DNA of 64,000 nt, taken from NCBI RefSeq assembly GCF_001713355.1, contig NZ_CP016448.1:2728001-2792000 (forward strand), written 5' to 3'. The DNA is from Methyloversatilis sp. RAC08 (GTDB lineage Bacteria > Pseudomonadota > Gammaproteobacteria > Burkholderiales > Rhodocyclaceae). The notes below the pieces were generated by a model that was not told the origin of the DNA, did not search any database, and worked only from the letters and a program-made list of their open reading frames with translations. The translations under genes were made by a program, and so were the position numbers. Shown one piece after another: positions 18,134-36,011 of the stretch. Every line of letters begins with the position of its first letter. Position 1 is the first letter of the stretch.

Positions 18134-18273
18134 TATGGATTATACGAGGCGGTGCGCACGCCGCCCCGTTGGATGGTGCGCCAACCGGCGCCCCGTGCCT
18201 GAAGGACCTGTCCGGTGGAACGCGCCGGGCAGGCATTCCAGCAACAGTGCGGACAACAAGGCGAGGAATACGC

Positions 18274-19440: not shown

Positions 19441-19454
19441 GGGGAACACAACAC

Positions 19455-20348
19455 ATGTCGATTCTGATCAACAAGGACACCAAGGTCATCACCCAGGGCA
19501 TCACCGGGAAGACTGGCCAGTTCCACACCCGCATGTGCCGCGACTACGCGAACGGCAAGAACTGCTTCGTCGCCGGCGTCAATCCCAAGAAGGCAGGCGA
19601 AGACTTCGAAGGCATTCCGATCCACGCCACCGTGGCGGAAGCCAAGGCGGCAACCGGCGCCACCGTGTCGGTGGTCTATGTGCCGCCCCCGGGCGCGGCC
19701 GCTGCAATCTGGGAAGCGGTCGAAGCCGACCTCGATCTGGTCATCTGCATCACCGAAGGCATTCCGGTGCGCGACATGCTGATGGTGCGCAACCGGATGA
19801 AGGCCAAGGAGGCAGCCGGCGGCAAGCGCACGCGACTGCTCGGTCCGAACTGCCCGGGTCTGATCACGCCGGACGAAATCAAGATCGGCATCATGCCGGG
19901 CCATATCCACAAGAAGGGCCGCATAGGCGTGGTCAGCCGCTCCGGCACGCTCACCTACGAAGCAGTCGGTCAGCTGAGCGAGATCGGCCTCGGCCAGTCG
20001 AGCGCTGTCGGCATCGGTGGCGACCCGATCAACGGTCTGAAGCACATCGAAGTGATGCAGCTGTTCAACGATGATCCGGACACTGACGCGGTCATCATGA
20101 TCGGTGAAATCGGCGGTCCGGATGAAGCGGAAGCGGCCGAGTGGTGCAAGGCCAACATGAAGAAACCCATCGTCGGTTTCATCGCAGGCGTCACCGCGCC
20201 GGCCGGCAAACGCATGGGCCACGCCGGTGCGCTGATTTCCGGCGGTGCCGACACGGCCGATGCCAAGCTGGAAATCATGGAGGCGTGCGGCTTCACGGTG
20301 ACGCGCAATCCGTCGGAAATGGGCAAGCTGCTCAAGGGGCTGCTCTGA
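19455..20348 (+). CDS. sucD: Succinyl-CoA synthetase, alpha subunit
   Basis: A 297-residue subunit with an N-terminal Rossmann CoA-binding domain (TGKTGQFHTRMCRDY) and the phosphohistidine loop GKRMGHAGALISGG. It lies 14 bases after sucC behind an AGGGGAA site, forming the sucCD operon. A strong terminator follows 32 bases after the stop. Confidence 0.98.
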   Translation: MSILINKDTKVITQGITGKTGQFHTRMCRDYANGKNCFVAGVNPKKAGEDFEGIPIHATVAEAKAATGATVSVVYVPPPGAAAAIWEAVEADLDLVICITEGIPVRDMLMVRNRMKAKEAAGGKRTRLLGPNCPGLITPDEIKIGIMPGHIHKKGRIGVVSRSGTLTYEAVGQLSEIGLGQSSAVGIGGDPINGLKHIEVMQLFNDDPDTDAVIMIGEIGGPDEAEAAEWCKANMKKPIVGFIAGVTAPAGKRMGHAGALISGGADTADAKLEIMEACGFTVTRNPSEMGKLLKGLL

Positions 20349-20380
20349 TTCCGGCGCACTGACGGACAGAGGTGACGAAG

Positions 20381-20410
20381 AAGGCCACCGCCTGGGCGGT
20401 GGCCTTTTCA
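20381..20410 (+). terminator. Intrinsic terminator of sucCD
   Basis: A perfect 10-bp GC-rich stem (20383-20392 with 20395-20404) with a very tight 2-base loop, which in practice would open to 4 bases. TTTT follows. It closes the sucCD operon before the TerC-family gene. Confidence 0.85.
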
Positions 20411-20475
20411 TTTGTGCTCGTCATGCGGCAGCACCGGTAGAATCCGCGCTTCCGCAATTCGAATGCAAGACCATC

Positions 20476-21219
20476 ATGGATTTCAGTTCTCCCGAATTCT
20501 GGCTCGCTGTCGGTCAGATCATCATGATCGACATCCTGCTCGGCGGCGACAACGCGGTGGTGATCGCGCTGGCCTGCCGCAAACTGCCGCCGGCGCAGCG
20601 TCGACTGGGCATCATGTGGGGTACCGCCGGGGCCGTCGTGTTGCGCGTGGTGCTCATCATGTTTGCGCTGACGCTGCTCAAGCTGCCTTTCCTGAAGCTG
20701 ATCGGCGCGCTGCTGCTGCTGTGGATCGGCATCAAGCTGCTGATGGCCGATGATGATGATGACCACGCCAACATCAAACCCAGCGACAAGCTGTGGGCCG
20801 CAGTGAAGACCGTCATCGTGGCCGACTTCGTGATGAGCCTCGACAACGTGATTGCCATCGCCGGCGCAGCCGAAGGTGCCGGTGCCGATCACCAGTTCGC
20901 GCTGGTGGTATTCGGCCTGGTCGTGTCGATCCCCATCATCGTGTGGGGCAGCCAGATCGTGCTGGGACTGATGACCCGATACCCCATCATCATCACGCTC
21001 GGTGCAATGTTGCTCGGCTGGATCGCCGGCACCATGGCAGTCGGCGATCCGGCGATCACGCCTTATCTGCCGCTGATCGAGCCCGCTACGCCGACGGCGG
21101 CGCCGGAAGCGATTGCGGCCGTGCGCTACGGCGCAGGCATCGCCGGCGCGATCTTCGTGCTGGCACTCGGCAAGGTCCTCGGCGCGCGCAACAAGCCGGT
21201 CGACTACCCGATCCAGTAA
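20476..21219 (+). CDS. TerC family integral membrane protein (YjbE-like)
   Basis: A 247-residue protein with about seven membrane helices. It carries the paired family motifs GGDNAVVIAL (helix 1) and DFVMSLDNVIA (mid-protein), whose acidic residues lie in the membrane. A charged MADDDDDHAN loop separates the halves. TerC proteins are linked to metal (often manganese) efflux and tellurite resistance; the exact substrate here is unknown. It is 6 bases upstream of the next gene, likely one operon. Confidence 0.9.
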   Translation: MDFSSPEFWLAVGQIIMIDILLGGDNAVVIALACRKLPPAQRRLGIMWGTAGAVVLRVVLIMFALTLLKLPFLKLIGALLLLWIGIKLLMADDDDDHANIKPSDKLWAAVKTVIVADFVMSLDNVIAIAGAAEGAGADHQFALVVFGLVVSIPIIVWGSQIVLGLMTRYPIIITLGAMLLGWIAGTMAVGDPAITPYLPLIEPATPTAAPEAIAAVRYGAGIAGAIFVLALGKVLGARNKPVDYPIQ

Positions 21220-21225
21220 CCCGCC

Positions 21226-22179
21226 ATGGCGCTCTACCTCACCGAAGGCGACATCCGTCAGGTACTGACCTTGCAGGACGCGCTGTCGGCGGTGGAAGAC
21301 GCACACCGCTGGCATGCCACCGGCGATGCCATCGACACGCCGCGCGCGCGCAGTCGTACGCCGACCTCGGCGCTGCACATCCTGCATGGCGCCGTGCTGC
21401 CGCTCGGCGTGATCGGCTACAAGAGCTACACGACCAGCCGCGAGGCGGCGCGTTTCTGGGTCCATCTGTTCGACGCCGCTACCGGCCGCGCACTGGCGGT
21501 CATCGAAGCCGACTACCTCGGCATGATGCGCACGGGCGCTGCAGGCGGACTGGCGGCCCGGCTGCTGTCGAATCCGGCGTCGAAAGTCGCCGGTGTGTTC
21601 GGCGCCGGATGGCAGGCGCAAAGCCAGATCGCTGCGCTGTGTGAGGTGCGCGACCTGGACGAAATCCAGGTGTTCGCCCGCAAGCGCGACAAACTCGAAG
21701 CCTTCTGCGCCGAACAGTCGGCGCGGCTGGACCGTAAGATTCGTCCGGCTGCAAGTGCCGAGGAGATGGTGAAGTCGGCGGACATCGTGGTGACCATCAC
21801 CACGGCCAGCGAACCGCTGTTCGACGGGCGCTGGCTCAAGCCCGGTGCGCACGTGACGGGCGCCGGTTCCAACGCGCTCATCCGTCGTGAAATCGACGAA
21901 ACCGTTATCCGCCGGGCTGCCGTGGTTGCGGTCGACGCGCGCGCGACGGCGCTGCGCGAATCCGGCGACCTGCTGCCGGCGCTCGAAAAGGGGCGCCTGG
22001 TCGAATACGGAATGGTGGAACTGGGCGAATTGTTGAACGGCATGCGGCCGGGCCGCGAATCGGATGACCAGATCACGCTGTTCGAATCGCAGGGCATGGC
22101 GATCCAGGACCTCACGCTGGCATCGCGCCTGCTTGAAAAGGCCAGGATTGCCGGCCTCGGGCGCGAGCTTCCGTACTGA
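21226..22179 (+). CDS. Ornithine cyclodeaminase / mu-crystallin family protein
   Basis: A 317-residue NAD(P)-binding protein with the GVFGAGWQAQSQ Rossmann motif at about residue 125, an N-terminal dimerisation domain and the GYKSYT segment. The family includes ornithine cyclodeaminase, alanine dehydrogenase and ketimine reductases, which cannot be told apart here. Six bases after the TerC-like gene. A 213-base gap follows with a small inverted repeat (22184-22190 with 22208-22214) and no clear promoter. Confidence 0.88.
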   Translation: MALYLTEGDIRQVLTLQDALSAVEDAHRWHATGDAIDTPRARSRTPTSALHILHGAVLPLGVIGYKSYTTSREAARFWVHLFDAATGRALAVIEADYLGMMRTGAAGGLAARLLSNPASKVAGVFGAGWQAQSQIAALCEVRDLDEIQVFARKRDKLEAFCAEQSARLDRKIRPAASAEEMVKSADIVVTITTASEPLFDGRWLKPGAHVTGAGSNALIRREIDETVIRRAAVVAVDARATALRESGDLLPALEKGRLVEYGMVELGELLNGMRPGRESDDQITLFESQGMAIQDLTLASRLLEKARIAGLGRELPY

Positions 22180-22392: not shown

Positions 22393-24999
22393 GTGAGCGT
22401 GGCCAAAGCCGCTGTATGGAAGACGGATTGGTTCCTGGGCGTCATCATCAGCCTGCTGTTCCTTTTCTCCACCCAGACCGACCTGATCCAGAGCCTCGAA
22501 CGAAAGGCCTACGACGTCGGCGTGGCAGCGACCGACCGCAGCCCCAGTCCGCGCATTGCGATCATCGCGATCGACCAGCAGAGCATCGACAACATCGGCC
22601 GCTGGCCGTGGCCGCGCGATGTGCATGCCCGCATGATCGACAAGCTGGCCCAGGCACAGGCAAAGGTGGTCGGAACAACGATCTTCTTCGCCGAACCGCA
22701 GCTCGACCCGGGTCTTGTCTATATAAACAGGTTGCTCGCACTGGAGCAGCAGGCGCGTGATCAGATTGTCGTGCCGATCGAGCCGTCGGCCGAAGCTGAT
22801 CCGATGGCCGAACCGTCGGCACCGGCCGTCAATCCGCTCGACGCGTTCGGGGCGACCCTGCGCGAAGCCGAAGCGGCGTTGAACACCGACCGGCAGCTCG
22901 CCGACAGCATGAAGAAGGCGGGCAATGTCGCGCTGCCGATGCTGTTTCTCGACGGCGAGCCGCAGGGCCGTCCGGACAAGCCGCTGCCCGAGTTCGTGCG
23001 CGCCACCGCGCTGACGAATGTCAGTGGTAGCGAGCCGCTGCCGCCATTGACGCTGGACGTGTCTGCGGGCGTCATCGAACAACTGGGTACGGTTGCCGCA
23101 GCGGTCGGTCACCTGAATCCGTCGATAGACCGCGACGGCGGCCTGCGGCTGCATCCGCTGGTGATGACCCATTTCGACCAGTTCTACCCGTCGCTGCCGC
23201 TGCTGATCGCGGCAAGAAGCCTGAATCTCGGCGTCGCTGATATCAAGGTCACGCTGGGCGAGTCGGTGTCGCTGGCCCGACTGAACGTGGCCACCGACCC
23301 GAGTCTGGGCATGTACAGCTTCTACTACCGCGGCGAAGGCGGCAAACCGGCCTTTCCGGTCGATTCCTTCTTTGACGTCATGAGCGGAAAGATCCCGCTC
23401 GACAAGTACCGCGACCGCATCGTGCTGATCGGCCAGACCGCACCGGGCATCGGCAATTTCTACGCCACGCCGGTGTCGCCGGCCATGTCGTCGGTCGAAG
23501 TGATGGCGCACGGCCTGTCCAGCATCCTGCAGGAGCATTTCTTCGTGTCGCCGCCCTGGTCGGTGGCGGCCGAGTTCGGCGTATTCCTGCTGGTGGCGCT
23601 TTACCTCATCGTGCTGCTGCCGCGTTTGAAGGCCGGCCTGGGTGCTGGCATTACCGCTGCCATCTTTGTTGCACTGCTGGCAACCCACTTCGTGCTGATG
23701 ACCAGCCAGCTCGTCTGGCTGCAGCTCATGTTGCCTGCCGCACTGCTGCTGGTCGGCCACTTGCTGCTGACCACCAAGCGCTTCCTGGTGACCGAGCGCG
23801 GCAAGGTGAAGTCGGATGAGCAGTCGGCCGAGTCGAACCGCATGCTGGCGCTGGCCTTCCAGGGACAGGGCCAGCTCGACATGGCGTGGGACAAGTTCCG
23901 CCAGGTGCCGCTGTCCGACGCGGTGATGGAAAACCTCTACAACCTGGCGCTCGACTTCGAGCGCAAGCGCCAGTTCAACAAGGCGGAAAGCGTGTTCCGC
24001 CACATGGCGGAGTTCAACCCCAAGTTCCGCGATCTGGAAACACGGGTGAAGCGCGCCAAGGCGATGTCGGAAACCGTGATGCTCGGCGGCGGCAGCGGCG
24101 GCCGCACGAATACCAGCATCCTCGAGGACGGCACGGTCGAAAAGCCGATGCTCGGGCGCTACCAGGTCGAGAAGGAACTGGGCAAGGGCGCCATGGGCGT
24201 GGTCTATCTCGGGCGCGATCCGAAGATCAACCGTGTCGTGGCGATCAAGACGATGGCCCTGTCGCAGGAATTCGACGAAGAAGAGCTGGCCGACGTGAAG
24301 GAACGCTTCTTCCGCGAAGCTGAAACCGCCGGGCGCCTGAACCATCCGAACATCGTCACCATCTTCGATGCCGGTGAAGAGCACGACCTCGCCTATATCG
24401 CGATGGAGTTCCTGAAGGGGCGTGACCTCGTTCCGCAAACCAAGCCGGGTCAGCTCCTGCCGCTGCCGAAGGTGATGGATGTCGTGGCGCGCGTCGCCGA
24501 AGCTCTCGCCTACGCGCACGGCAACCAGGTCGTGCATCGCGACGTGAAGCCCGCCAACATCATGTACGAGGCGGAGTCGGACCAGGTCAAGGTGACCGAC
24601 TTCGGCATCGCGCGCATCACCGATTCGTCGCGCACCAAGACCGGCATGGTGCTCGGTACGCCGTCCTACATGTCACCGGAACAGCTGGCTGGCAAGAAGA
24701 TCGATGGCCGCTCCGACCTGTTCTCGCTCGGTGTCATGCTGTTCCAGATGGTGTGCGGCAAGCTGCCCTTCGAAGGCGATTCCATGGCGCAGTTGATGTT
24801 TCGCATTGCGAACGAAGCACATCCGGACATCCGTGACATCCGTCCTGACGTGCCGGATTGCCTGTCGGCCATCATCGACCGCGCGCTGGCCAAGGACGTC
24901 GAGGCGCGTTATCAGTCGGGCGGAGACATGGCGGCCGACCTGCGAACCTGCGCTGGCAACCTGACACAATCCATCACCCAAGTTGATTTCGATATCTGA
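22393..24999 (+). CDS. CHASE2-domain membrane Ser/Thr protein kinase
   Basis: An 868-residue receptor kinase. One N-terminal membrane helix (about residues 12-28) is followed by a periplasmic CHASE2 sensor domain to about 385, three more helices (about 387-466), a TPR-like helical linker and a C-terminal Hanks-type kinase. Kinase residues are intact: glycine loop GKGAMG (597-602), VAIK with Lys619, HRDVKPAN with Asp717, DFG 736-738 and GTPSYMSPEQL. It starts with GTG after CGGGG. First gene of the signalling run; the PP2C phosphatase and FHA protein that follow are its natural partners. Ligand and substrates unknown. Confidence 0.95.
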   Translation: MSVAKAAVWKTDWFLGVIISLLFLFSTQTDLIQSLERKAYDVGVAATDRSPSPRIAIIAIDQQSIDNIGRWPWPRDVHARMIDKLAQAQAKVVGTTIFFAEPQLDPGLVYINRLLALEQQARDQIVVPIEPSAEADPMAEPSAPAVNPLDAFGATLREAEAALNTDRQLADSMKKAGNVALPMLFLDGEPQGRPDKPLPEFVRATALTNVSGSEPLPPLTLDVSAGVIEQLGTVAAAVGHLNPSIDRDGGLRLHPLVMTHFDQFYPSLPLLIAARSLNLGVADIKVTLGESVSLARLNVATDPSLGMYSFYYRGEGGKPAFPVDSFFDVMSGKIPLDKYRDRIVLIGQTAPGIGNFYATPVSPAMSSVEVMAHGLSSILQEHFFVSPPWSVAAEFGVFLLVALYLIVLLPRLKAGLGAGITAAIFVALLATHFVLMTSQLVWLQLMLPAALLLVGHLLLTTKRFLVTERGKVKSDEQSAESNRMLALAFQGQGQLDMAWDKFRQVPLSDAVMENLYNLALDFERKRQFNKAESVFRHMAEFNPKFRDLETRVKRAKAMSETVMLGGGSGGRTNTSILEDGTVEKPMLGRYQVEKELGKGAMGVVYLGRDPKINRVVAIKTMALSQEFDEEELADVKERFFREAETAGRLNHPNIVTIFDAGEEHDLAYIAMEFLKGRDLVPQTKPGQLLPLPKVMDVVARVAEALAYAHGNQVVHRDVKPANIMYEAESDQVKVTDFGIARITDSSRTKTGMVLGTPSYMSPEQLAGKKIDGRSDLFSLGVMLFQMVCGKLPFEGDSMAQLMFRIANEAHPDIRDIRPDVPDCLSAIIDRALAKDVEARYQSGGDMAADLRTCAGNLTQSITQVDFDI

Positions 25000-25082
25000 C
25001 ATGACACAGCCCGCATGCCCGCACCACCTGCTGTCCCCGGAGGGGAAGTGTCCGTGTATCTGCTTGCGCGGGCGGTACTGAT

Positions 25083-25886
25083 ATGACCCGGGATCTCGGT
25101 CAGGCGCTGCAGATGGTCAGTCGCACCCATTCCGGCATGGTGCGCACACACAACGAGGACGCGGTGTTCACGCAGCCCGGTGTCGGCCTCGCGATACTGG
25201 CTGACGGCATGGGCGGTTACAACGCCGGTGAGGTGGCAAGTGGCATGGCCACAGCGGTCATCGGCGCTGAGCTTGCGCAGGGCCTGCAGGAGGCGAAACA
25301 CGGCGTGTCGCAACTGCTGGAATCGGTCATCGGCCGCGCCAACAGCGCGATCTATCAGGCCGCCGAGAGCCAGCCGCAGTATTCGGGCATGGGCACGACG
25401 CTGGTCATGGCCGTTTTCCGCGACAATCACATATCCGTCGCGCATATCGGCGATTCGCGCATGTACCGGCTGCGCGACGGCGCCTTCGAGTGCGTCACAC
25501 GTGACCACTCGCTGTTGCAGGAGCAAATCGACAGCGGCATGATTACGGAAGAGGACGCCCGCCGTTCCCAGAACAAGAACCTCGTGACGCGCGCGCTGGG
25601 CGTCGACCCGGAAGTCGAGCCCGAAATACACACCTACGAAGTGGTTCCCGGTGACGTATATCTGTTCTGTTCCGACGGACTGAACGACATGGTCGAGAAC
25701 GACGACATCGCGCTCACGCTTCAGGCTTTGTCCGCCAACCTCGATCTGGCGGCCGAACAACTCGTACAGATGGCGAACGACAACGGCGGACGCGACAATG
25801 TGTCGGTGATACTGGTCAGGGTGCTGCAGGCCTTTCCTGCCACCGAACGCGGCTGGCTTGCGCGCCTGCTTGCATGGTTGAAGTAA
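25083..25886 (+). CDS. PP2C-family Ser/Thr phosphatase
   Basis: A 267-residue metal-dependent phosphatase. All motifs are present: RTHNEDAV, LADGMGGYNAGEVAS, GMGTTLVMAV, AHIGDSRMYRLRDG, CSDGLNDMV and GGRDNVSVIL. This is the PrpC/Stp1 type that reverses bacterial Ser/Thr kinases. It follows the kinase by 83 bases and precedes the FHA gene by 12, so its likely job is to remove phosphates placed by the CHASE2 kinase. No membrane segment, so cytoplasmic. Confidence 0.95.
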   Translation: MTRDLGQALQMVSRTHSGMVRTHNEDAVFTQPGVGLAILADGMGGYNAGEVASGMATAVIGAELAQGLQEAKHGVSQLLESVIGRANSAIYQAAESQPQYSGMGTTLVMAVFRDNHISVAHIGDSRMYRLRDGAFECVTRDHSLLQEQIDSGMITEEDARRSQNKNLVTRALGVDPEVEPEIHTYEVVPGDVYLFCSDGLNDMVENDDIALTLQALSANLDLAAEQLVQMANDNGGRDNVSVILVRVLQAFPATERGWLARLLAWLK

Positions 25887-25898
25887 AGGGACTGGAAA

Positions 25899-26711
25899 AT
25901 GGCAAAACTGATACTCAGCATGGATGGACTGGTCCTCAAGGAGTTGCCGCTCGCCAAGGAGCGCACCACCATTGGGCGCAAACCGCACAACGACATCCAG
26001 ATCGACAATCTTGCGATCAGCGGCGAACACGCGGTCATCGTCACCATCCTCAACGATTCCTTCCTTGAGGACATGAACAGTACGAACGGCACCTATGTGA
26101 ACGGGCAGCCGATCAAGAAGCACTTCCTGCAGAACAACGATGTGGTCGAGCTCGGCAAGTACCGGCTCAAGTACATCAACGAGACGCCGACCGTTGCGCA
26201 GTCGCCTGATTTCGAGAAAACCATGGTGTTGCGTCCGGACATGATGCGCAAGGCGCCGGCCGATGCACCGTCTGCGCCGGCTCCGGTGCGCGCCCAGACC
26301 GATACGCAGACCGGTTTCCGTCCAGGTCAGTCGATGCCGGCCGGTTCGTCGCTCGGTGGTTCGAATCTGCCGCCGCCTCCGCCGCCGCTGGCACCGCCGC
26401 CGCCGCTGGCACCGCCGCCGCCGCCGCCGCCGGCCGCGAGCGCCAATCAGGTCGGCGCGATCCAGATCCTCAATGGCGCCAACGCCGGGCGCGAACTTGA
26501 ATTGACGAAGACCTTGACCACACTCGGCAAGCCGGGGCTGCAGGTCGCAGTCATCACGCGTCGCCCTCAGGGTTACTTCATCACCCACGTCGAAGGCTCG
26601 AACATGCCGGTCGTCAACGGTCGCCAGCTCGATGCCCAGGCGCATCCGCTCGAGGATCATGACGTGATCGAAATCGCCGGTGTGAAGATGGAGTTCTTCA
26701 TCAAGCGCTGA
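25899..26711 (+). CDS. FHA-domain protein with polyproline linker and second degenerate FHA domain
   Basis: A 270-residue cytoplasmic protein. Residues 1-95 form a canonical FHA phospho-threonine reader with TIGRKPHNDIQID, SGEHAVI and STNGTYVNG. A Pro-rich linker (about residues 155-180) of runs of six to seven prolines separated by LA follows. The C-terminal part (about 183-270) looks like a second FHA fold (TLTTLGKPG, NMPVVNGRQLD) lacking the usual Arg and Ser-x-x-His ligands. It probably recognises phosphorylated partners of the adjacent kinase. Confidence 0.92.
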   Translation: MAKLILSMDGLVLKELPLAKERTTIGRKPHNDIQIDNLAISGEHAVIVTILNDSFLEDMNSTNGTYVNGQPIKKHFLQNNDVVELGKYRLKYINETPTVAQSPDFEKTMVLRPDMMRKAPADAPSAPAPVRAQTDTQTGFRPGQSMPAGSSLGGSNLPPPPPPLAPPPPLAPPPPPPPAASANQVGAIQILNGANAGRELELTKTLTTLGKPGLQVAVITRRPQGYFITHVEGSNMPVVNGRQLDAQAHPLEDHDVIEIAGVKMEFFIKR

Positions 26712-26828
26712 CGACTTCCGGCCCGAGCCTGTCATGCTGCCGCGTCCGGCGCCTGTCGTCCGCCGCCTCCCGGGGCATGTGCCGGATGAGGCGCAGCGTG
26801 CGTTCGGATTTGTTGCCGGTTGTCCGCA

Positions 26829-29066
26829 ATGAACCAGAACACGCTGCGCTACGGCATCGGTCTGCTGTTCCTGCTGATCCTGCTCGGCCATGCGGCCCGT
26901 CTTTACCAGATACCGGTGCTGGGCAATCTTGATCACATCGCCTACGACACCAAACTGTCGCTGACGATGCCGGGGGGCATCGATGACCGGGTGGTCATTC
27001 TCGACATCGATGAAAAATCGCTGGCTGAAGTCGGTCGTTGGCCGTGGGGGCGGGAACGGCTCGCAGTGCTGATGGACCTGTTGTTTGACCGCTACGGCGT
27101 CAGCCTGCTTGGCGTCGACGTTGTTTTTGCGGAACCGGACACCAGTTCCGGCCTGCCGGCGCTGGAAGGCCTGGCGCAGGGCGTGCTGGCCGACAACGCA
27201 GATTTTCGTGCGTCGCTCGACGCGCTGAGGCCGCAACTCGATTACGACCAGCGTTTTGCCGCCTCCCTCAAGAACCGACCCGTGCTACTGGGCTATTACT
27301 TCGGCAACCGCGATGACGGTCTGAACAGCGGCGCGCTGCCGGAACCGGTCTTGCCGGCCGGTACATTTCGTGGCCGCAACATCGCGTTTGCGACCTTCAA
27401 CAGCTTTGGTGCCAACCTGCCGCGTTTCCAGCAGGAAGCGCTCGGCGCCGGCCACTTCAATCCGCTGCCCGATTTCGATGGACTGAACCGGCGCGTACCG
27501 ATGCTGGTGGAGCACAAGGGCGCCTATTACGAATCGCTTTCGCTCGCCATCGTCCGCACGCTGCTGGGCAGTCCGAAGCTGGCACCCGGGTACGCCGAAA
27601 GCGGGTTCTTCTCCACGTCCAGCCGTGACTATGCCGGACTCGAATGGCTGGAAATGCCGACCAGCAAGGGCACGCTGCGCGTACCGGTCGACGAGAACGT
27701 GGCTGCGCTGATCCCCTATCGCGGCCTGCAAGGCAGTTTTGCGTATCACTCGCTGGCCGATGTGCTCGCCGGCCGCACGCCAGTCGATGCATTGAAGGGG
27801 CGGATCGCGCTGCTCGGCACCACCGCGCCCGGGCTGCTTGACCTGCGTGCCACGCCGGTCGGCAGCACCTACCCGGGGGTGGAAATTCACGCCAACCTGA
27901 TCGCCGGCATGCTCGATGGCCGCATCAAGCATCGCCCGCAGTACGTCACCGGGTTCGATGTGGTCGTGCTGCTCGTGATCGGCGGCCTGCTCATCTGGTC
28001 GCTGCCGCGGCTGTCGCCTCAGTACGCGACGCTGCTGGCCGGCGGCGCGTTGCTCGCATTGGTCGGCATGAACTTCGCGTTCTGGCATTTCGCCGACTTC
28101 GTTCTGCCGCTGGCGGCATCGGTGTTGCTCGTGGTCGGGATTTATGCGCTTAACATGTCGTACGGCTACTTCTTCGAGTCACGTTCGAAGCGCCAGTTCA
28201 CCCGCATGTTCGGGCAGTACGTGCCGCCCGAACTGGTCGAGGAAATGAGCCGCAATCCTGAGCACTACAGCATGGAGGGGCGAAATGCCGAGCTGACCGT
28301 GCTGTTTTCGGACATCCGGGGCTTTACCAGCATTTCGGAAGGGCTCGAACCGAAACAATTGACACAGCTCATGAACGATTACCTGGGCGCAATGACTGCA
28401 GTGATTCAGGATCAGCGTGGGACGCTCGACAAATACATCGGTGACGCCATCATGGCGTTCTGGGGTGCGCCGGTCGATGACCCCGAACATGCCCGGCACG
28501 CCGTGGCCGCAGCGCTGCGCATGCATGCGGCGCTGGCCGATCTGAACCGTTCGCTGATGGCGCGTGGCTGGCCGGAACTGAAGATAGGCGTGGGTTTGAA
28601 CACGGGTCCGATGACGGTCGGCGACATGGGGTCACCCGTACGCAAAGCCTATACTGTCATGGGTGATGCGGTGAATCTGGCGTCCCGCCTTGAGGGGCTC
28701 ACGAAGCAGTACGGTGTTGGCGTACTGGTTGGCGAAGCGACGCGGCGCGCGGTCAAGGATGTCGTCTTTCGCGAGATCGACCGGGTCCGGGTGAAGGGCA
28801 AGGACGAGCCGGTATCGATTTTCGAACCGCTCGCCTTCGAAAGCGAATTCGACCGCAGTCGGGTCGAAGAACTGAAATTGTGGAATCTCGCATTGCGACA
28901 GTTCCGCGGCCAGGAGTGGGATCAGGCTGAACTGACCTTGTTCAACCTGCAGCGCATCGCGCCGGACTGCGGACTGTACAGGCTGTACGCCGAACAGATT
29001 GCCGACTACCGCCGCCACCCGCCCGGCAAGGATTGGGACGGCGTACGGACATTTGAAACGAAGTAG
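26829..29066 (+). CDS. CHASE2-domain class III adenylate/guanylate cyclase
   Basis: A 745-residue membrane cyclase with an N-terminal helix, a periplasmic CHASE2 domain, three helices (about 374-450) and a cytoplasmic class III cyclase domain. Both metal aspartates are present, in FSDIRGFTS (Asp495) and IGDAIMAFWGAP (Asp539). The catalytic region continues through VGLNTGPMTVGDMG and YTVMGDAVNLASRLEG. ATG 26829 is preferred over TTG 26820; neither has a strong ribosome site. It shares its sensor type with the upstream kinase. Product is most likely cAMP, inferred from the phosphodiesterase that follows 21 bases on. Confidence 0.93.
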   Translation: MNQNTLRYGIGLLFLLILLGHAARLYQIPVLGNLDHIAYDTKLSLTMPGGIDDRVVILDIDEKSLAEVGRWPWGRERLAVLMDLLFDRYGVSLLGVDVVFAEPDTSSGLPALEGLAQGVLADNADFRASLDALRPQLDYDQRFAASLKNRPVLLGYYFGNRDDGLNSGALPEPVLPAGTFRGRNIAFATFNSFGANLPRFQQEALGAGHFNPLPDFDGLNRRVPMLVEHKGAYYESLSLAIVRTLLGSPKLAPGYAESGFFSTSSRDYAGLEWLEMPTSKGTLRVPVDENVAALIPYRGLQGSFAYHSLADVLAGRTPVDALKGRIALLGTTAPGLLDLRATPVGSTYPGVEIHANLIAGMLDGRIKHRPQYVTGFDVVVLLVIGGLLIWSLPRLSPQYATLLAGGALLALVGMNFAFWHFADFVLPLAASVLLVVGIYALNMSYGYFFESRSKRQFTRMFGQYVPPELVEEMSRNPEHYSMEGRNAELTVLFSDIRGFTSISEGLEPKQLTQLMNDYLGAMTAVIQDQRGTLDKYIGDAIMAFWGAPVDDPEHARHAVAAALRMHAALADLNRSLMARGWPELKIGVGLNTGPMTVGDMGSPVRKAYTVMGDAVNLASRLEGLTKQYGVGVLVGEATRRAVKDVVFREIDRVRVKGKDEPVSIFEPLAFESEFDRSRVEELKLWNLALRQFRGQEWDQAELTLFNLQRIAPDCGLYRLYAEQIADYRRHPPGKDWDGVRTFETK

Positions 29067-29087
29067 TGTTTTCTGGATCAGGAACTG

Positions 29088-29855
29088 ATGAGGATACGGG
29101 TGCTCGGTTGCAGTGGTGGTATCGGTGGTGCAAATCTGCGCACCACCTCACTGCTCGTGGACAACGACATCCTGATCGACGCCGGTACCGGCGTGGGCGA
29201 CCTGTCGATCGCTGAGCTTTCGCGCATTGACCATGTGTTCGTCACGCACAGTCATCTCGATCACATCGCCTGTCTGCCGCTGATGGTCGATACGGTCGGC
29301 GAGTTGCGCGACAAGCCGCTGACCGTATGGACGACCGGCCCGACGCTCGAAGTCCTTCGTCGCCACATCTTCAACTGGTCGATCTGGCCAGACTTCACGG
29401 AGATTCCATCTGCCGAGAAGCCCTTCCTGCGCTTTCGCGAACTTCGTGTCGGCGACGAGATCGAGTTGGGCGACCGAGCCATCCGGGTGCTCCCGGCGCA
29501 ACACACCGTTCCGGCAGTCGGCTACGCCGTGCGTTCGGCCGGCGGCACGCTGGCGTTTTCCGGCGACACCACGGTATGCGACGAATTCTGGTCGGCGGTG
29601 AACGCGTTGCCTGACCTGCGCTACCTCATCATAGAAACCGCCTTTCCGGACCGCGACCGCCAACTGGCGGTGATGTCGCGCCACCTGTGCCCGGACATGC
29701 TGGCGAGCGAGCTCCAGAAACTGGAACATCCTGCCGAAATCTACATCACGCATCTGAAACCAAGCCAGATGATCATGACCATGCGCGAGATCGCCGAAAC
29801 ATTGGGCGCACTCCAACCCCGCATGTTGCGCAACAATCATGTTTTCGACTTCTGA
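29088..29855 (+). CDS. MBL-fold 3',5'-cyclic-nucleotide phosphodiesterase
   Basis: A 255-residue metallo-beta-lactamase-fold hydrolase with metal motif THSHLDHIACLP, further ligands in AQHTVPAVGY and FSGDTTVCDE, and a terminal RNNHVFDF. The THSHLDH motif and overall layout resemble class II cyclic-nucleotide phosphodiesterases (PDE1/CpdP type). Its position 21 bases after the cyclase supports cAMP hydrolysis. Other MBL activities, such as RNase Z-like ones, cannot be excluded. An AGGA site precedes ATG 29088. Confidence 0.85.
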   Translation: MRIRVLGCSGGIGGANLRTTSLLVDNDILIDAGTGVGDLSIAELSRIDHVFVTHSHLDHIACLPLMVDTVGELRDKPLTVWTTGPTLEVLRRHIFNWSIWPDFTEIPSAEKPFLRFRELRVGDEIELGDRAIRVLPAQHTVPAVGYAVRSAGGTLAFSGDTTVCDEFWSAVNALPDLRYLIIETAFPDRDRQLAVMSRHLCPDMLASELQKLEHPAEIYITHLKPSQMIMTMREIAETLGALQPRMLRNNHVFDF

Positions 29856-29924
29856 CCTGCTTTCAGCACCTCTGCGCGACGCCGTCGCGCGGGGTGCGCC
29901 GGCCGGCGGCAACGAGGTGATCGA

Positions 29925-32300
29925 ATGAGTGCAGTGATGCCGCCGGCGAGTGATCTGGGCGCCATGAGCGATGTATCGAGCCGGCTGGCCTTCTTCAAGA
30001 ATCTTCAGGGCGTCACGACGAAGATTCACGCCACCACGAACATCGACGAAATCATGCTTGAGCTGTCGCAGGAGATTTCTGCGCTGTTCAACGCCGACCG
30101 CCTCACCATCTACGTGCTGGGCGACGACAAGTCCACCATCGTGTCCAAGGTCAAGACCGGCCTGAATTCGTTCAAGGACCTGCGATTGCCGCTCACCGAG
30201 CAGTCCGTGGCGGGTTTCGTCGGCATGAGCCGCCAGCTGTTGAATCTGCGCGACGTGTACGACGAAGAGGAACTGAAGTCGCATTCGCCCAGCCTGCGTT
30301 TCCTCGACGGTGTCGACAAGAAGACCGGCTACCGCACCAAGCAGATGCTGGTCGCTCCCATCCTCGATCCGGAGAAGAAGGATCTGCTCGGGGTCGTCCA
30401 GCTGATCAACAACAAGTCCGGCCAGCCTTTTTCGGCACTCGCGGAAGAGGGCTTGCTGAGCATGGCGCACACGCTGGCAGTCGCTTTCCAGCAACGCAAT
30501 CGAGTCGCCCACGTCGTGAAGTCGAAATACGACTACCTCGTGGTCGATGGCGTCATGTCGCCGCAGGAGTTCGATCTGGCATCGCGTGCTGCGAGGCGCA
30601 AGGGCGTCGATGTCGAGGACGTGCTGGCGCGCGATTTCCAGGTCAAGCAGCAGGCGATCGGCGCGTCGCTGTCCAAGTTCTTCGGCGTCGCCTACGAATC
30701 CTTCCGGCCGGAACGCATCAAGCCGTTCGACCTGATCAAGAACCTGAAGCGCGAGTACCTCGAAGAGCAGCAATGGGTGCCGGTGGAAGAGGGCAAGGAC
30801 GGTATCGTCGTGATGGCGCTCGATCCGGAAAAAGTCAAGGGTGCGCGCGTTGTCAACAACATCTTTCCGAAGTCCAAACTGCTGTTCCGCGTCACCACGA
30901 CGAAGGAATTCGTGCAGACGCTCGATCAGTTCTACGGCTCGACGATGGACGAGACCAGCGTCGGCGACCTGCTGTCGGACATGCTGGGCGAAGACGAATC
31001 TGCGCAGGATGGCGGCAATGACGACGTCAGCGCTGCCGCCGACAATGAGCTGGTGCGGCTGGTGAACAAGATCATCATCGATGCCTACCAGCAGGGCGCG
31101 TCCGACATCCACATCGAACCGCGTCCGGGCAAGGACAAGACTCACGTGCGCTTCCGCAAGGACGGCACGCTGCACCCTTACATCGAAGTGCCCGCCAGCT
31201 ACCGGAGTGCGCTGGTCACCCGACTGAAGATCATGTGCGATCTCGACATTTCCGAGCGTCGCAAGCCGCAGGACGGCAAGATCAAGTTCCGCAAGTTCGG
31301 TCCGCTCGACATCGAACTGCGGGTGGCGACCATTCCTTCAGCGGGTGGCGTCGAAGATGTCGTGATGCGTATCCTGGCGGCCGGCGAGCCGATTCCGATG
31401 GACAAGCTGGGTGTCCTGCCGGCCAACCTCACCAGGCTGAAGGACGCGGTCAGCAAGCCCTACGGCCTGTTTTTCGTCTGCGGCCCGACCGGCTCCGGCA
31501 AGACCACCACGCTGCATTCCATACTCGGCTACATCAATACGCCGGAAACCAAGATATGGACCGCCGAAGATCCGGTCGAAATCACGCAGAAGGGCCTGCG
31601 GCAGGTACAGATCAACAAGAAGGCGGGGCTGGACTTTCCGGCCATCATGCGCGCCTTCCTGCGGGCCGACCCGGACGTGATCATGGTCGGTGAAATGCGC
31701 GACAAGGAAACGGTGGCGATCGGCATCGAAGCTTCGCTCACCGGTCACCTCGTGTTCTCTACGCTGCACACCAACAGCGCACCGGAATCCATCGTGCGCC
31801 TGCTCGACATGGGCATGGATCCGTTCAACTTCGCCGATGCGTTGCTCGGCGTGCTCGCTCAGCGCCTCGCCAAGCGGCTGTGTCCGGTGTGCAAGGAAGC
31901 CTGGCACCCGAGCGACGACGAAATGAAGCATTTTCTGCAGGAGTACTGCGAGGAAATGCGCAATACGCCCGATTTCGTGGTCGATGCCGAAGGCGCGATG
32001 GCGCGCATCTTCAACGAATGGAAAAAGGCATACGCCGACGACAAGGGCCGCTTCACGCTCTACCGTGCCAAAGGGTGCCCGGAGTGCGGTGAGACGGGCT
32101 ACCGCGGGCGGCTCGGCCTGCACGAGCTGATGATCGGCACCGACGCAATCAAGAAGAACATCCAGGAGCGCGAGCGCGTGGCCACCATGCTGGCGACCGC
32201 GCTGCAGGAAGGCATGCGCACGCTGAAGATGGATGGCATGGAAAAGGTCTTGTCGGGTGCGACCGACATGAAGCAGGTTCGCGCGGTCTGCATCAAGTAG
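29925..32300 (+). CDS. GAF-domain GspE/PilB-type secretion or pilus ATPase
   Basis: A 791-residue fusion. Residues about 20-180 are a GAF sensor, about 195-345 a GspE/MshE N-terminal domain (LSKFFGVAYESF), and the rest a hexameric secretion ATPase. Walker A is GPTGSGKTT (from 520), Walker B DPDVIMVGEMRD (from 582), with histidine box STLHTNSAPES. A four-cysteine zinc site lies at 653/656 and 718/721. PilB/GspE proteins power pilus extension or pseudopilus secretion; an N-terminal GAF is unusual. No other motor or secretin gene lies nearby except pilA. Preceded by GAGGTGA. Confidence 0.93.
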   Translation: MSAVMPPASDLGAMSDVSSRLAFFKNLQGVTTKIHATTNIDEIMLELSQEISALFNADRLTIYVLGDDKSTIVSKVKTGLNSFKDLRLPLTEQSVAGFVGMSRQLLNLRDVYDEEELKSHSPSLRFLDGVDKKTGYRTKQMLVAPILDPEKKDLLGVVQLINNKSGQPFSALAEEGLLSMAHTLAVAFQQRNRVAHVVKSKYDYLVVDGVMSPQEFDLASRAARRKGVDVEDVLARDFQVKQQAIGASLSKFFGVAYESFRPERIKPFDLIKNLKREYLEEQQWVPVEEGKDGIVVMALDPEKVKGARVVNNIFPKSKLLFRVTTTKEFVQTLDQFYGSTMDETSVGDLLSDMLGEDESAQDGGNDDVSAAADNELVRLVNKIIIDAYQQGASDIHIEPRPGKDKTHVRFRKDGTLHPYIEVPASYRSALVTRLKIMCDLDISERRKPQDGKIKFRKFGPLDIELRVATIPSAGGVEDVVMRILAAGEPIPMDKLGVLPANLTRLKDAVSKPYGLFFVCGPTGSGKTTTLHSILGYINTPETKIWTAEDPVEITQKGLRQVQINKKAGLDFPAIMRAFLRADPDVIMVGEMRDKETVAIGIEASLTGHLVFSTLHTNSAPESIVRLLDMGMDPFNFADALLGVLAQRLAKRLCPVCKEAWHPSDDEMKHFLQEYCEEMRNTPDFVVDAEGAMARIFNEWKKAYADDKGRFTLYRAKGCPECGETGYRGRLGLHELMIGTDAIKKNIQERERVATMLATALQEGMRTLKMDGMEKVLSGATDMKQVRAVCIK

Positions 32301-32328
32301 GCCGCGGGCGCTGACAGGAACGCACGCC

Positions 32329-33960
32329 ATGGACACGCTAGACGATCTGCTGCGGCGCCTGGAACAGCTCAACGAGATCGGCAGCGCCTTGTCGAACGAG
32401 CGCAACATCGATGCGCTGCTCGAAAAGATCCTGCTGGCGGCCAAAACCATCACCCATGCCGATGGCGGTACGCTGTACCGCATCGACGAAGCGGGCGAGC
32501 ACCTTCGCTTTGAAATCCTGCGCACCGATTCGCTGGGCATAGCGATGGGCGGCAGCACCGGCAAACCGATCGCCTTTCCGCCGCTGCCGCTGCATCTCGA
32601 CGACGGCTCGCCCAACCTGTCGATGGTGGCGGCCTACAGCGCGTTGAAGGGGCAGACGGTCAATATCGCCGATGCCTACCGCGCCGAAGGTTTCGACTTT
32701 TCCGGCACGCGCGCCTTCGACGCGCGCACCGGCTACCGCTCGACCAGCTTCCTGACCGTGCCGATGATGAATCACGAAGGCGCGGTCATCGGCGTGCTGC
32801 AGCTGATCAATGCAGTGCATCCGGTGACCGGCGCGGTCGGCGTGTTCTCCGGTTCCGACCGCCAGCTGGCCGAATCGCTCGCGTCGCAGGCCGCCATCGC
32901 GCTGACCAACCGGCAACTGGTGAGCCAGCTCGAAGCGCTGTTCGAATCCTTCATCACGCTGATCAACAATGCGATCGACGAAAAGTCACCCTACACCGGT
33001 GGTCACTGCCAGCGTGTGCCGACGCTGACCATGATGCTGGCCGAAGCCGTGAACGACACGCAGGATGGCCCGCTCGCCGGCTTCACGATGACCGAGGCCG
33101 ACCGCTACGAACTGAAGATCGCCGGTCTGCTGCACGATTGCGGCAAGGTCACGACCCCGGTGCATGTGGTCGACAAGGCCACCAAGCTGCAGACCATTTT
33201 CGACCGCATCGAACTGATCGACACCCGCTTCGAACTGATCCGGCGCGATATCGAACTGGCGACACTCAACAGCCGCTTCGCTGCCGGCCTCAATGCCTCG
33301 CCGGCCGTGCTGGCCCAGATCGAGCGCCACGGTGCCGACCGGCTGCGTGACATCGACGAAGACCGTGCCTTCCTGCATCACGCCAACATCGGTTCCGAAC
33401 GCATGAGCGACGCCGACGTCGAGCGCGTCCATGCGATCGCCCGCCGCTGGCGCTGGACCGATTCACAAGGCGCCGAACGATCCTGCCTGAGCGATGAAGA
33501 AGTCGAAAACCTGACCATACGCGCGGGCACGCTGACTGGCGCCGAGCGGGAAATCATCAATTACCACATCGTGTCGACGATACGCATGCTCGAAGCGCTG
33601 CCCTGGCCGCGCCACCTGACCAATGTGCCGGAGTACGCCGGCGGTCACCATGAGCGCATGGATGGCAAGGGCTATCCGCGCGGGTTGGCGCGCGACCAGA
33701 TGAGCGTGCAGGCGCGGGTCATGGGTATCGCCGACATCTTCGAAGCACTGACCGCAAAGGACCGGCCGTACAAGCGCCCGATGCGCCTGTCCGAAGCCCT
33801 GCACATCCTCGGCAAGTTCCGCCTCAATGGCCACATCGATCCCGACCTGTTCGATGTGTTCGTGCGCCGCAAGGTCTATCTCAAGTACGCCGAAACCTTC
33901 CTCGACCCGGAGCAGATCGACGACGTCGATCTGTCGGCCATCCCCGGCTTCCAGCCCTGA
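32329..33960 (+). CDS. GAF-HD-GYP domain protein, probable c-di-GMP phosphodiesterase
   Basis: A 543-residue soluble protein. An N-terminal GAF domain (to about 200) resembles that of the upstream ATPase. The HD-GYP domain has His269-Asp270 in LLHDCGKV and the canonical HHERMDGKGYP at 440-450. Between them lie about 170 residues, roughly 100 more than usual; the extra segment is about 285-395. HD-GYP enzymes hydrolyse c-di-GMP, and the key residues look intact. It follows the ATPase by 28 bases and ends 196 bases before pilA. Confidence 0.93.
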   Translation: MDTLDDLLRRLEQLNEIGSALSNERNIDALLEKILLAAKTITHADGGTLYRIDEAGEHLRFEILRTDSLGIAMGGSTGKPIAFPPLPLHLDDGSPNLSMVAAYSALKGQTVNIADAYRAEGFDFSGTRAFDARTGYRSTSFLTVPMMNHEGAVIGVLQLINAVHPVTGAVGVFSGSDRQLAESLASQAAIALTNRQLVSQLEALFESFITLINNAIDEKSPYTGGHCQRVPTLTMMLAEAVNDTQDGPLAGFTMTEADRYELKIAGLLHDCGKVTTPVHVVDKATKLQTIFDRIELIDTRFELIRRDIELATLNSRFAAGLNASPAVLAQIERHGADRLRDIDEDRAFLHHANIGSERMSDADVERVHAIARRWRWTDSQGAERSCLSDEEVENLTIRAGTLTGAEREIINYHIVSTIRMLEALPWPRHLTNVPEYAGGHHERMDGKGYPRGLARDQMSVQARVMGIADIFEALTAKDRPYKRPMRLSEALHILGKFRLNGHIDPDLFDVFVRRKVYLKYAETFLDPEQIDDVDLSAIPGFQP

Positions 33961-34084: not shown

Positions 34085-34100
34085 TGGCACCCGCCTTGCT
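34085..34100 (+). promoter_or_regulatory. Sigma-54 promoter of pilA
   Basis: TGGCAC at 34085-34090 and TTGCT at 34096-34100, with 12 bases from the GG to the GC, match the -24/-12 sigma-54 consensus almost perfectly. It lies 57 bases before the pilin ATG. pilA is a classic sigma-54/PilR-dependent gene in Pseudomonas and many Betaproteobacteria. The bound activator is not encoded here. Confidence 0.8.
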
Positions 34101-34156: not shown

Positions 34157-34618
34157 ATGAAGAAGGTTCAACAAGGCTTTACGCTGATCGAACTGATGAT
34201 CGTGGTTGCCATCATCGGTATTCTGGCCGCGATCGCGATTCCGCAGTATCAGGACTACGTTACGCGTGCCCGTTGGTCGGACAACATTTCCAGTGCTGCA
34301 TCGCTCAAACTGGCGATTGGCGAATGTCTGCAGAATCGAGGTGGAGTTCAGGCTGACTGCGACTCGATTGCTGAACTGAACACGAATGGCTTCTTTCCGT
34401 CAAACGTTGATCCTGTGCTAACGAACACGGGTTCGATGACGGTAATCGCTGGCGAAGGCGGCGCTCCGGCCATCCAGATTACGGGTACGGGCCAGTTGGG
34501 TTCGCCTGCCTGCCGCGTGTTACTTACTGGAGCGTCCAATGTGGCAACGGTTCGGTGGGTTGCGAGCAACGCACAGGTTGCCGGATGTGGTCGCTCCAAG
34601 ACCGGCGTAGGCACCTGA
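34157..34618 (+). CDS. pilA: Type IV pilin (major pilin type)
   Basis: A 153-residue type IVa prepilin. The 7-residue leader ends in Gly, followed by Phe+1 and Glu+5 in [18 protein letters not shown], so prepilin peptidase would cut before the Phe. An alpha-1 helix, a variable head and cysteines follow, including a C-terminal pair (PACR and AGCG) that could form the D-loop disulfide. It has a strong CAGGAGAG site, a sigma-54 promoter and its own terminator. A TfpO-like ligase follows, and the mature pilin ends in Thr. Confidence 0.95.
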
Positions 34619-34642
34619 TTTGTTGCTGGGGTTCCTGCATGG

Positions 34643-34676
34643 AAAAAAGCTCCCGATGGTCGGGAGCTTTTTTTTA
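34643..34676 (+). terminator. Intrinsic terminator after pilA, overlapping the next start codon
   Basis: A 9-bp stem (34648-34656 with 34660-34668), a 3-base loop, an A-run before it and a run of eight Ts after it. It is 30 bases after the pilin stop. The preferred ATG of the next gene (34656-34658) lies at the stem-loop boundary, so downstream expression needs read-through and opening of the hairpin. Confidence 0.92.
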
Positions 34677-36011
34677 TTGTTTTCCGTCGTACCGCTGTTC
34701 GTGTTTCCCGCGACCGGGCTGTCAGAACACGACGCGCAGCGCATCTGTCAGTGGGCGCTGTTCACGGTGGCCGGATTCCATTCCCTCAAGCTCAAAGTCG
34801 CCATCTCGTGGCGCTGGGTTGGTGTGGTCTTGGCAATGCTGGGATACGGGCTGGCATGCGGCCGCTGGGCGCTGATTGAATCCGTTCATCTGGTTCTGCT
34901 GCTCGCCCTGTTCACGGTGTGGACGACATCGCTCCGTGAGCGTCCGGAATCCGCACTGCCTCAAGTGTATGCAGGCATTGCGCTGTGCTATCTGGTTCTG
35001 ATGCTCCCGCGCTGGGCTGCCGTCATCATTGAAGGTTTGCCGTTTCACCCCCAGGAGTTCTATTTCGGGTTTTCAAACCAGCGCTTCTTCGGTCACTGGG
35101 TAACCTTGTCGCTCCCGATGGTAGTACTGGCGCGCGACCGCCTCGCCGCGCTCACGCGTTCGCCGTGGGTGCTCGATGTTGCGATGGGCGCATGGATATC
35201 TTTTGCACTGGCATCCGGTACACGCGGGACGTGGATTGCTCTGGCGCTGGCGATAGTCGCCGTTGCCGGCTGTGGAAAGGGCGGGCGGGCCTTCGCGTCG
35301 CGACTGATACGCGGCATTGCAATCGGGACCGTCGCCTATGGTGCGATGTTCGTGCTGCTGCCGTGGATGACCGGAAGTACCCAGACAGCGCTGCCAGGCG
35401 TGGGCCGTGCGCTGGAGGGCGCGCATTCTTCGGGTCGAGGCACCCTCTGGCTGTTTGCACTGGATGGCATCGAGGCACGACCCTGGATCGGTAACGGACC
35501 CATGTCCTACGCCATAACCGATGATACCTATGCGCGGCATCCCCACAATCTGCTGCTCCAGGTTGCGTACGAATGGGGGGTTCCGCTGGCATGCGTTATT
35601 GCTGCGCTGATCGCACGGATGCTGCTGCTGCAGATTCGGCGCGCGATCAGCCATGATGGAAGGGATCCGCTGCACCTTGCCTTGCTTGCGGTCATCGTGG
35701 GCGGACTTGCGCAAGCCCAGGTCGACGGGATCCTGATAATGCCGTTTTCCCAAGTGTGTTTCGTTCTGGTTTGCGCCATGCTCTGTTCGCTGCAGCCCGG
35801 GCAGAAGGTGCCGGCTGGAAACGGGCTGCCCGGCAGCCACCTTTATTTTTCGGTGGGCATTCTGTCGCTTGCCGCTGCGCAGTTATTCCTGATGTGGCCC
35901 GAGCTGTCGCGCTTTCTCGACTGGGAGGCTGAAAGCCTTGCCGCGACCGGCGTTCCGATGTATCAGCCGCGCTTCTGGCTGCAAGGCGTGATCGTCCCGG
36001 GCTGGGACTAA
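34656..36011 (+). CDS. O-antigen ligase/Wzy family protein, likely pilin glycosylation ligase (TfpO/PglL-like)
   Basis: About 451 residues with some ten to twelve membrane helices. The large periplasmic region carries Wzy_C-like features: SGTRGTWIALA, the Arg- and Gly-rich SSGRGTLWLFAL segment, and NGPMSY...RHPHNLLLQ with the conserved histidines. The family transfers lipid-linked glycans to O-antigen core or to pilin. Position directly after pilA matches the pilA-tfpO (pilO) pair of Pseudomonas. Start unclear: ATG 34656 is in the pilA terminator, and TTG 34620, one base after the pilin stop, is an alternative that could be coupled. Confidence 0.85.
   Translation: MVGSFFLLFSVVPLFVFPATGLSEHDAQRICQWALFTVAGFHSLKLKVAISWRWVGVVLAMLGYGLACGRWALIESVHLVLLLALFTVWTTSLRERPESALPQVYAGIALCYLVLMLPRWAAVIIEGLPFHPQEFYFGFSNQRFFGHWVTLSLPMVVLARDRLAALTRSPWVLDVAMGAWISFALASGTRGTWIALALAIVAVAGCGKGGRAFASRLIRGIAIGTVAYGAMFVLLPWMTGSTQTALPGVGRALEGAHSSGRGTLWLFALDGIEARPWIGNGPMSYAITDDTYARHPHNLLLQVAYEWGVPLACVIAALIARMLLLQIRRAISHDGRDPLHLALLAVIVGGLAQAQVDGILIMPFSQVCFVLVCAMLCSLQPGQKVPAGNGLPGSHLYFSVGILSLAAAQLFLMWPELSRFLDWEAESLAATGVPMYQPRFWLQGVIVPGWD

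Follow-up and report, generated by a model that had tools for sequence, protein, structure and literature searches.

A run of seven genes in Methyloversatilis sp. RAC08 appears to form a conserved module that carries signals from the cell envelope to the type IV pilus, in which one product, a GAF-ATPase, would be an accessory pilus ATPase under the control of cAMP and of phosphorylation. By a narrow balance of judgement, we favour this reading of the sequences. The genes occupy positions 22393-33960 of the stretch of 64 kb that was analysed (here called the window), and are designated in their order as K (kinase), P (phosphatase), F (FHA), C (cyclase), M (metallo-hydrolase), A (GAF-ATPase) and H (GAF-HD-GYP). 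The genome is 3.94 Mb in size and consists of a single contig.

Gene content and conservation of the seven-gene run

All seven open frames are on the plus strand. K (22393-24999) encodes a CHASE2 region, a linker and a Hanks-type Ser/Thr kinase (Pfam CHASE2 and Pkinase), and is followed by P (25083-25886), a PP2C phosphatase of the Stp1 family (Pfam PP2C, NCBIfam NF033484), and by F (25899-26711), in which Pfam detects one FHA domain. C (26829-29066) is a CHASE2 class III cyclase (Pfam CHASE2 and Guanylate_cyc), for which the start was set at ATG 26829, the mechanical open reading frame starting earlier at TTG 26820. M (29088-29855) is a metallo-beta-lactamase (MBL)-fold hydrolase, apparently of the class II cyclic-nucleotide phosphodiesterase type (Pfam Lactamase_B_2 and PDEase_II). 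A (29925-32300) combines a GAF domain, an MshEN-like domain and a PilB/GspE-class ATPase domain (Pfam GAF, MshEN and T2SSE), and H (32329-33960) is a GAF-HD-GYP phosphodiesterase for cyclic di-GMP (c-di-GMP) (Pfam GAF and HD_5). The gaps between the genes are 83, 12, 117, 21, 69 and 28 bases, and thus the co-directional arrangement, the positions and all six gaps given in an earlier note on this DNA were reproduced in the open frames. The gene identities proposed there agreed with Pfam and NCBIfam for six genes; the double FHA assigned to F held only for its first half, the second region being degenerate-looking. The pairs of writer and eraser enzymes recognized in the same note retain intact catalytic motifs, as judged from Pfam and from patterns among orthologs. 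Site numbers in the scans for promoters (2 against 3.1 expected) and terminators (10 against 10.7 expected) were at chance level, and the scans therefore give nothing firm on a single transcript.

The run is a widespread betaproteobacterial module, because the identical K-P-F-C-M-A-H order on one strand was retained in 51 of 88 complete relative loci. The compact hub supposed in the earlier note is conserved in this sense, with an order that extends beyond close strains. The initial set of 120 loci consisted of 80 named loci, obtained by alignment of the ATPase (the best 80 of 547, so that this sample leans to close relatives), and 40 loci from the order, hand-picked across families from genomes lacking loci in the ortholog listing and including one paralog-only genome (L206). 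After exclusion of 25 named and 7 order loci, which ended at contig ends or had no full A frame, the complete order was found in 36/55 and 15/33, respectively. Among the matches listed, the nearest named relative of A, 93% identical, comes from a Methyloversatilis bin. In the 88 loci, A was accompanied most constantly by M (80 loci), followed by F (73), P (72), H (70) and C (65), and the partner most often missing was K (57).

Sub-clusters also exist, such as P-F-M-A in Accumulibacter and Zoogloea, C-H-M divergent from A in Herbaspirillum and Undibacterium, and A alone; and the gap between F and C holds one weak terminator-like site (26790-26804). Both observations favour the alternative that independent regulators are merely grouped beside a pilin gene, with no common output. 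The identical order in more than half of the complete loci argues against it, as do the neighbours of A outside the order. In a class sample of 185 genomes, the stretches around 12 relatives were inspected, including four full-length GAF-ATPases from other orders. One of these (L153) adjoins a convergent C-like gene, and another (L156) has a divergent M as its neighbour, H lying some kb away and the terminal part of a C-like frame being found at the margin of the fetched sequence. The stretches around the remaining two (L152 and L154) contained none of the seven-gene partners, and no match to K, P or F was detected around any of the four. A non-GAF relative (L149) is also located near a distant C-like gene (31%), and such company is therefore not exclusive to GAF-ATPases. 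On this evidence we judge a fortuitous grouping to be improbable. In one metagenome bin titled Bordetella parapertussis (L081), a name that looks doubtful, the arrangement K-P-F-C-A-H was observed.

Candidate signals of the GAF-ATPase and its partners

The ATPase domain of A (31038-32279, plus strand) scores 390.5 bits against the T2SSE superfamily model PF00437 (gathering score, 24.9), and carries Walker A (GPTGSGKTTT) and Walker B (GEMRD) motifs that were detected in 113/117 and 116/117 orthologs, respectively. It stays below the cut-offs of both the PilB equivalog TIGR02538 (463.2 vs 675.65 bits) and GspE TIGR02533 (440.1 vs 630.25 bits). In the phylogenetic tree, A is apart from the PilB-like ATPase of the same genome (L159). 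All the GAF-ATPases form one clade (100/99) inside a larger clade (100/99), which excludes this PilB-like protein and other such ATPases, some of them long branches.

In the earlier note, three signals were supposed to tune the ATPase, and c-di-GMP could then act on A directly as in MshE. The presence of H, an HD-GYP protein with its motifs, and a match of A to the MshEN model of Pfam (30684-30947, plus strand; 31.0 bits vs cut-off 23.1) are both in line with this possibility. MshEN domains bind c-di-GMP via RLGxx..LxxxLxxQ motifs (PMC5013675). The RLG pattern was, however, found neither in A nor in any of its 117 orthologs, while eight of the ten distinct non-GAF relatives in the larger clade carry R/KLG (and none of five outgroup rows does). 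The MshEN region of A aligned only weakly to a solved PilB (E 0.01). Direct control of A by c-di-GMP is thus disfavoured, and a scheme of three signals with such an input seems to us rather improbable. The related pilus-type ATPases L147, L148, L149, L150, L151 and L155, of which the N-terminal part does not align to the GAF domain of A, carry the R/KLG motif of c-di-GMP type.

The likely direct input of A, as judged from sequence, is cAMP through its GAF domain (30042-30485, plus strand). A search of the Protein Data Bank (PDB) with this domain gave 20 distinct matches under E 1e-3, of which 19 were GAF domains of cyclic-nucleotide cyclases or phosphodiesterases and one was the HD-GYP protein 4MCW. 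The top match was Anabaena CyaB2 (1YKD; 2.6e-26, with two GAF domains summed), for which cAMP contacts at R291, T293, I308, D356 and N359 are reported (PMC4411481). By alignment, these residues correspond to R59, T61, V76, D131 and T134 of A (the numbering offset is our own). R59, T61 and D131 were invariant in 23/23 sequences, four of them from outside the order, and T134 was nearly so; strict patterns for the contacts matched 104/117 and 96/117 orthologs. Val and Thr thus take the places of the Ile and Asn of CyaB2. Within the NKFDE signature, N162 and F169 are invariant, and Asp is replaced by Ala in the protein of the window. The alignment identifies the pocket residues as a conserved cyclic-nucleotide type.

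Gene C, the presumed source of the ligand, scores 83 bits against Guanylate_cyc of Pfam (cut-off, 21.9), and its PDB matches include CyaB (3R5G; 7.9e-35). The purine-contacting Lys and Thr patterns, which we take to be of adenylyl type, were found in 81/81 and 78/81 orthologs (FSDIRGF, an overly narrow cyclase pattern matching 7/81, was not used). C looks like an adenylyl cyclase. M carries the metal motif THSHLDH, and the forms [TS]HxHxDH and HxHLDH were found in 100/100 and 93/100 orthologs, respectively; the motif fits the HXHLDH described for class II phosphodiesterases (PMC9293780). Its score against PF02112 (PDEase_II) is 51.6 vs 23.7 bits, with part of the model covered, and the best PDB match was cyclic-nucleotide phosphodiesterase 1 (4OJV; 3e-10), followed by RNase Z (3.8e-6). 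M is below the cut-off of NF041851 for cyclic nucleotide-degrading MBL phosphodiesterases (44.5 vs 400 bits), and its top NCBIfam match, well under the cut-off, is RNase Z. Overall, M looks like a class II cyclic-nucleotide phosphodiesterase.

Several observations weigh against cAMP as the ligand. The lead of CyaB2 rests on two summed domains, which slightly reduces confidence in cAMP: per domain, CyaB2 scored 50.5 bits, 4MCW 45.7 and PDE2A 45.4, a difference of about 5 bits. The AlphaFold model of A has a pLDDT of 82.3; the fold scores of its GAF domain did not single out cAMP-binding GAFs in the fold comparison, which does not discriminate between GAF ligands and was dropped as proof. In addition, M pairs with A in the absence of C in 17 complete loci; in these 17 genomes, a C ortholog (47-49% identical) is located elsewhere in five, and no C-like cyclase (E <= 1e-25) was detected in another five. 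Together with the resemblance of M to RNase Z, these points favour a scheme in which M is an MBL hydrolase of another sort and the GAF domain responds to cGMP, to some other nucleotide or to a metabolite, with the link of the module to pili retained. The adenylyl-type residues of C and the retained Arg, Thr and Asp contacts of A speak against such a ligand, and we regard this scheme as unlikely, though it deserves to be kept in mind.

A second input may come through phosphorylation. The kinase motifs VAIK, HRDVKPAN and DFG are present in K, and all three in 61/61 orthologs; P scores above the Stp1 equivalog cut-off (NF033484; 254.9 vs 230 bits), and both P and the first FHA domain of F (FHA1; 25965-26156, plus strand) retain their motifs. 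A linker of F (26208-26234, plus strand) contains the motif FEKTM with a nearly invariant threonine, T108, and a degenerate FHA-like region follows (26448-26708, plus strand). For F, the mean pLDDT of the model was 66.8 and the first FHA was partly under 50, and hence only the second region of the model can be trusted. This region is predicted with confidence to fold into strands throughout (pLDDT about 80-95 in blocks starting at residue 181), and Pfam finds no FHA in it; read by eye, the residues presumably required for phosphothreonine binding are missing. The second FHA therefore looks degenerate. The best fold matches of F in Foldseek, the table of which does not tell the matched region of F, were the FHA domains of GarA and OdhI, partners of Hanks-type kinases.

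The linker motif is associated with the kinase gene. A FEKTM-type motif was found in 61/63 loci with K and in 11/18 without it (p 2.5e-4), and was missing in 2/63 and 7/18, respectively; 11 of 92 loci with F had too little upstream sequence and were omitted, leaving 81. The pattern was widened after misses of a stricter first version had been seen, and one locus (L121) was scored as lacking the motif under the wide pattern, though MDKTM can be read there. The pattern had no match among the other system proteins (334,496 residues). The seven loci that lack both K and the motif all belong to genomes without a full K; among the 11 with the motif and no local K, a full K is located elsewhere in two genomes. 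On the basis of this association and of the GarA and OdhI folds, we propose a GarA-like phospho-switch in F. F shares with these proteins the FHA fold and a conserved Thr outside the domain, but differs in falling below the OdhI cut-off (56.5 vs 200 bits) and in having the extra degenerate region.

The c-di-GMP phosphodiesterase H has intact HDxGK and HHExxDGxGYP motifs (93/93 and 92/93 orthologs, respectively), in alignment with 4MCW. Compared with that structure, the HD motif of H is separated from its GYP part by about 100 additional residues. Its GAF domain is closest to PDE5; the protein of the window has Gly at the position of the CyaB2 Arg, and a pattern ADG/ADA-x-T/S was found in 93/93 orthologs. 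Since the Arg contact is missing, control of H by cAMP, and thereby a link from cAMP to c-di-GMP, is a mere guess. A precedent for such control is Bdellovibrio Bd1971, a cAMP-sensing c-di-GMP phosphodiesterase (PMC6717892); it combines a CRP-family sensor with EAL, in contrast to the GAF and HD-GYP of H.

Association with type IV pili and the neighbouring pilin gene

The output of the module was examined by co-occurrence in 300 genomes of the order. Of these, 129 matched the GAF-ATPase initially, and eight with a paralog alone were not counted, leaving 121 carriers and 179 others; among the carriers, two (G340 and G305) are divided between contigs, and in one (G352) the A frame is interrupted by a stop. 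The type IV pilus gene pilM was present in 118/121 carriers and 110/179 non-carriers (p 5e-15), the type VI secretion gene tssB in 19/121 and 51/179 (p 0.012, a negative association), and the type II secretion gene gspL in 54/121 and 65/179 (p 0.15, no association), all p values being computed ignoring relatedness and genome size. The genome of the window contains pilM, and a search of this genome gave no match to tssB or gspL. As a statistical association, the seven-gene module tracks type IV pili; it shows no such link to type II secretion and is underrepresented where type VI occurs. The link to a pilus-type motor supposed in the earlier note gained support from the distribution of pilM and from the intact PilB/GspE-class ATPase domain of A, and its remark that no type VI gene is found here can be extended from the window to the genome for TssB.

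The kinase, phosphatase and Fha set of type VI secretion resembles the K-P-F triad, and F gives a weak match to TagH (48.6 vs cut-off 120.25). The triad might thus represent the type VI threonine-phosphorylation pathway, or A might serve type II secretion. The negative association of tssB, the lack of association of gspL and the absence of matches to both in the genome disfavour either output, and we consider this explanation very improbable.

Among the 75 loci with sufficient sequence, 31 had pilin matches within 3 kb downstream; the density of such matches was about 14-fold higher there (56 in 290 kb) than beyond (6 in 439 kb). In the window, a type IV pilin gene (34157-34618, plus strand; N_methyl) follows H. 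A candidate site TGGCAC-N5-TTGCT (34085-34100, plus strand), which we take to be of sigma-54 type, lies 56 bases ahead of its ATG; this pattern has two exact matches in the 64 kb, one of them at the pilin, and 43 matches vs 36 expected with one mismatch allowed. Directly after the pilin gene is a terminator-like hairpin of 18 pairs with a T tail (34639-34677, plus strand), a type of site found in chance-level numbers. With its own sigma-54-type site and terminator, the pilin gene, which the earlier note had placed among the targets of the hub, looks like a separate transcription unit. It probably encodes a separately controlled major pilin.

A PilB-like ATPase gene is located elsewhere in the genome, followed by frames read as PilC and PilD from their lengths and sequences. 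As this platform lies elsewhere, A would need to share it. Acinetobacter baylyi offers a precedent for a cell with two extension ATPases (PMC11656802). Like its second extension ATPase TfpB, A is an extra ATPase besides PilB in a genome with type IV pili, but A scores 396.4 against the TfpB cut-off of 850 bits and carries a GAF domain with attached signalling genes.

Other genes flank the run and the pilin gene. Directly after the latter is an O-antigen-ligase-like gene (34620-36011) with a weak TfpM match under the cut-off; its listed TTG start overlaps the pilin terminator, and the true start is therefore probably further on. A CYTH-CHAD protein is encoded on the minus strand (36769-38256). 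Upstream of K (18169-22179) are sucC and sucD, as read from Pfam domains, and genes for a TerC-family membrane protein and an ornithine cyclodeaminase/mu-crystallin-like protein; relatives retain portions of this run at the upstream position, and these include some without K (L107 and L131).

Proposed mechanism and its relation to known systems

In the module as we picture it, the CHASE2 membrane proteins C and K would sense signals outside the cytoplasm, C making cAMP and K phosphorylating Ser/Thr. M would degrade cAMP and P would strip phosphate, and with these two erasers each signal could be switched off. The usual c-di-GMP input of the ATPase would be swapped in A for a cAMP-binding GAF domain, and A would use the existing pilus platform of the genome. 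F may act as a phospho-switch, in which K phosphorylates T108 of the linker, to be bound by FHA1 either intramolecularly or on a partner, so as to dock or release A or the pilus base. H may lower c-di-GMP locally. More tentatively, we suggest that the pilus ATPase itself is a direct cAMP receptor, that cAMP made and destroyed by products of the cluster gates extension without transcription, and that the Hanks-type kinase with a self-binding FHA switch provides a second, independent gate.

Known systems share parts of this predicted scheme. MshE, PilB2 and Myxococcus xanthus PilB have in common with A an extension-type ATPase, an N-terminal second-messenger domain and an MshEN-like domain; A differs in lacking the c-di-GMP motif, in the added cyclic-nucleotide-type GAF and in its location within a run of cAMP and kinase genes. 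CyaB2, the closest solved GAF by the small margin per domain, has the Arg, Thr and Asp contacts in common, but its GAF domains are in tandem and its output is a cyclase, whereas A has a single GAF and a pilus-type ATPase. The Chp-CyaB-cAMP-Vfr system of Pseudomonas aeruginosa likewise links cAMP to type IV pili; there cAMP works on transcription via Vfr (PMC11656802), and here it is predicted to work on the ATPase itself.

No description of the gene set or of a GAF/cAMP pilus ATPase was found in the literature searched, from which most subscription journals and preprints were outside the scope. A genome paper on Ramlibacter refers to three PilB paralogs, and its accessible text does not describe the gene set (PMC3164672). 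In a 2024 review of PilB control, cAMP is treated through Vfr-dependent transcription and c-di-GMP through PilB-type ATPases, and GAF is absent from the part of the text available (PMC11656802). Regulation of pilus ATPases by second messengers is known in itself; what appears to be new is the different messenger and the phospho-switch attached to the ATPase.

Direct input of c-di-GMP to pilus motors is known, and the best-studied route from cAMP to pili is transcription. If the proposed scheme is true, a motor in which a cAMP pocket replaces the c-di-GMP site would represent a new and fast route from membrane sensing to the behaviour of the pilus, and would supply a function for a module retained by many betaproteobacteria.

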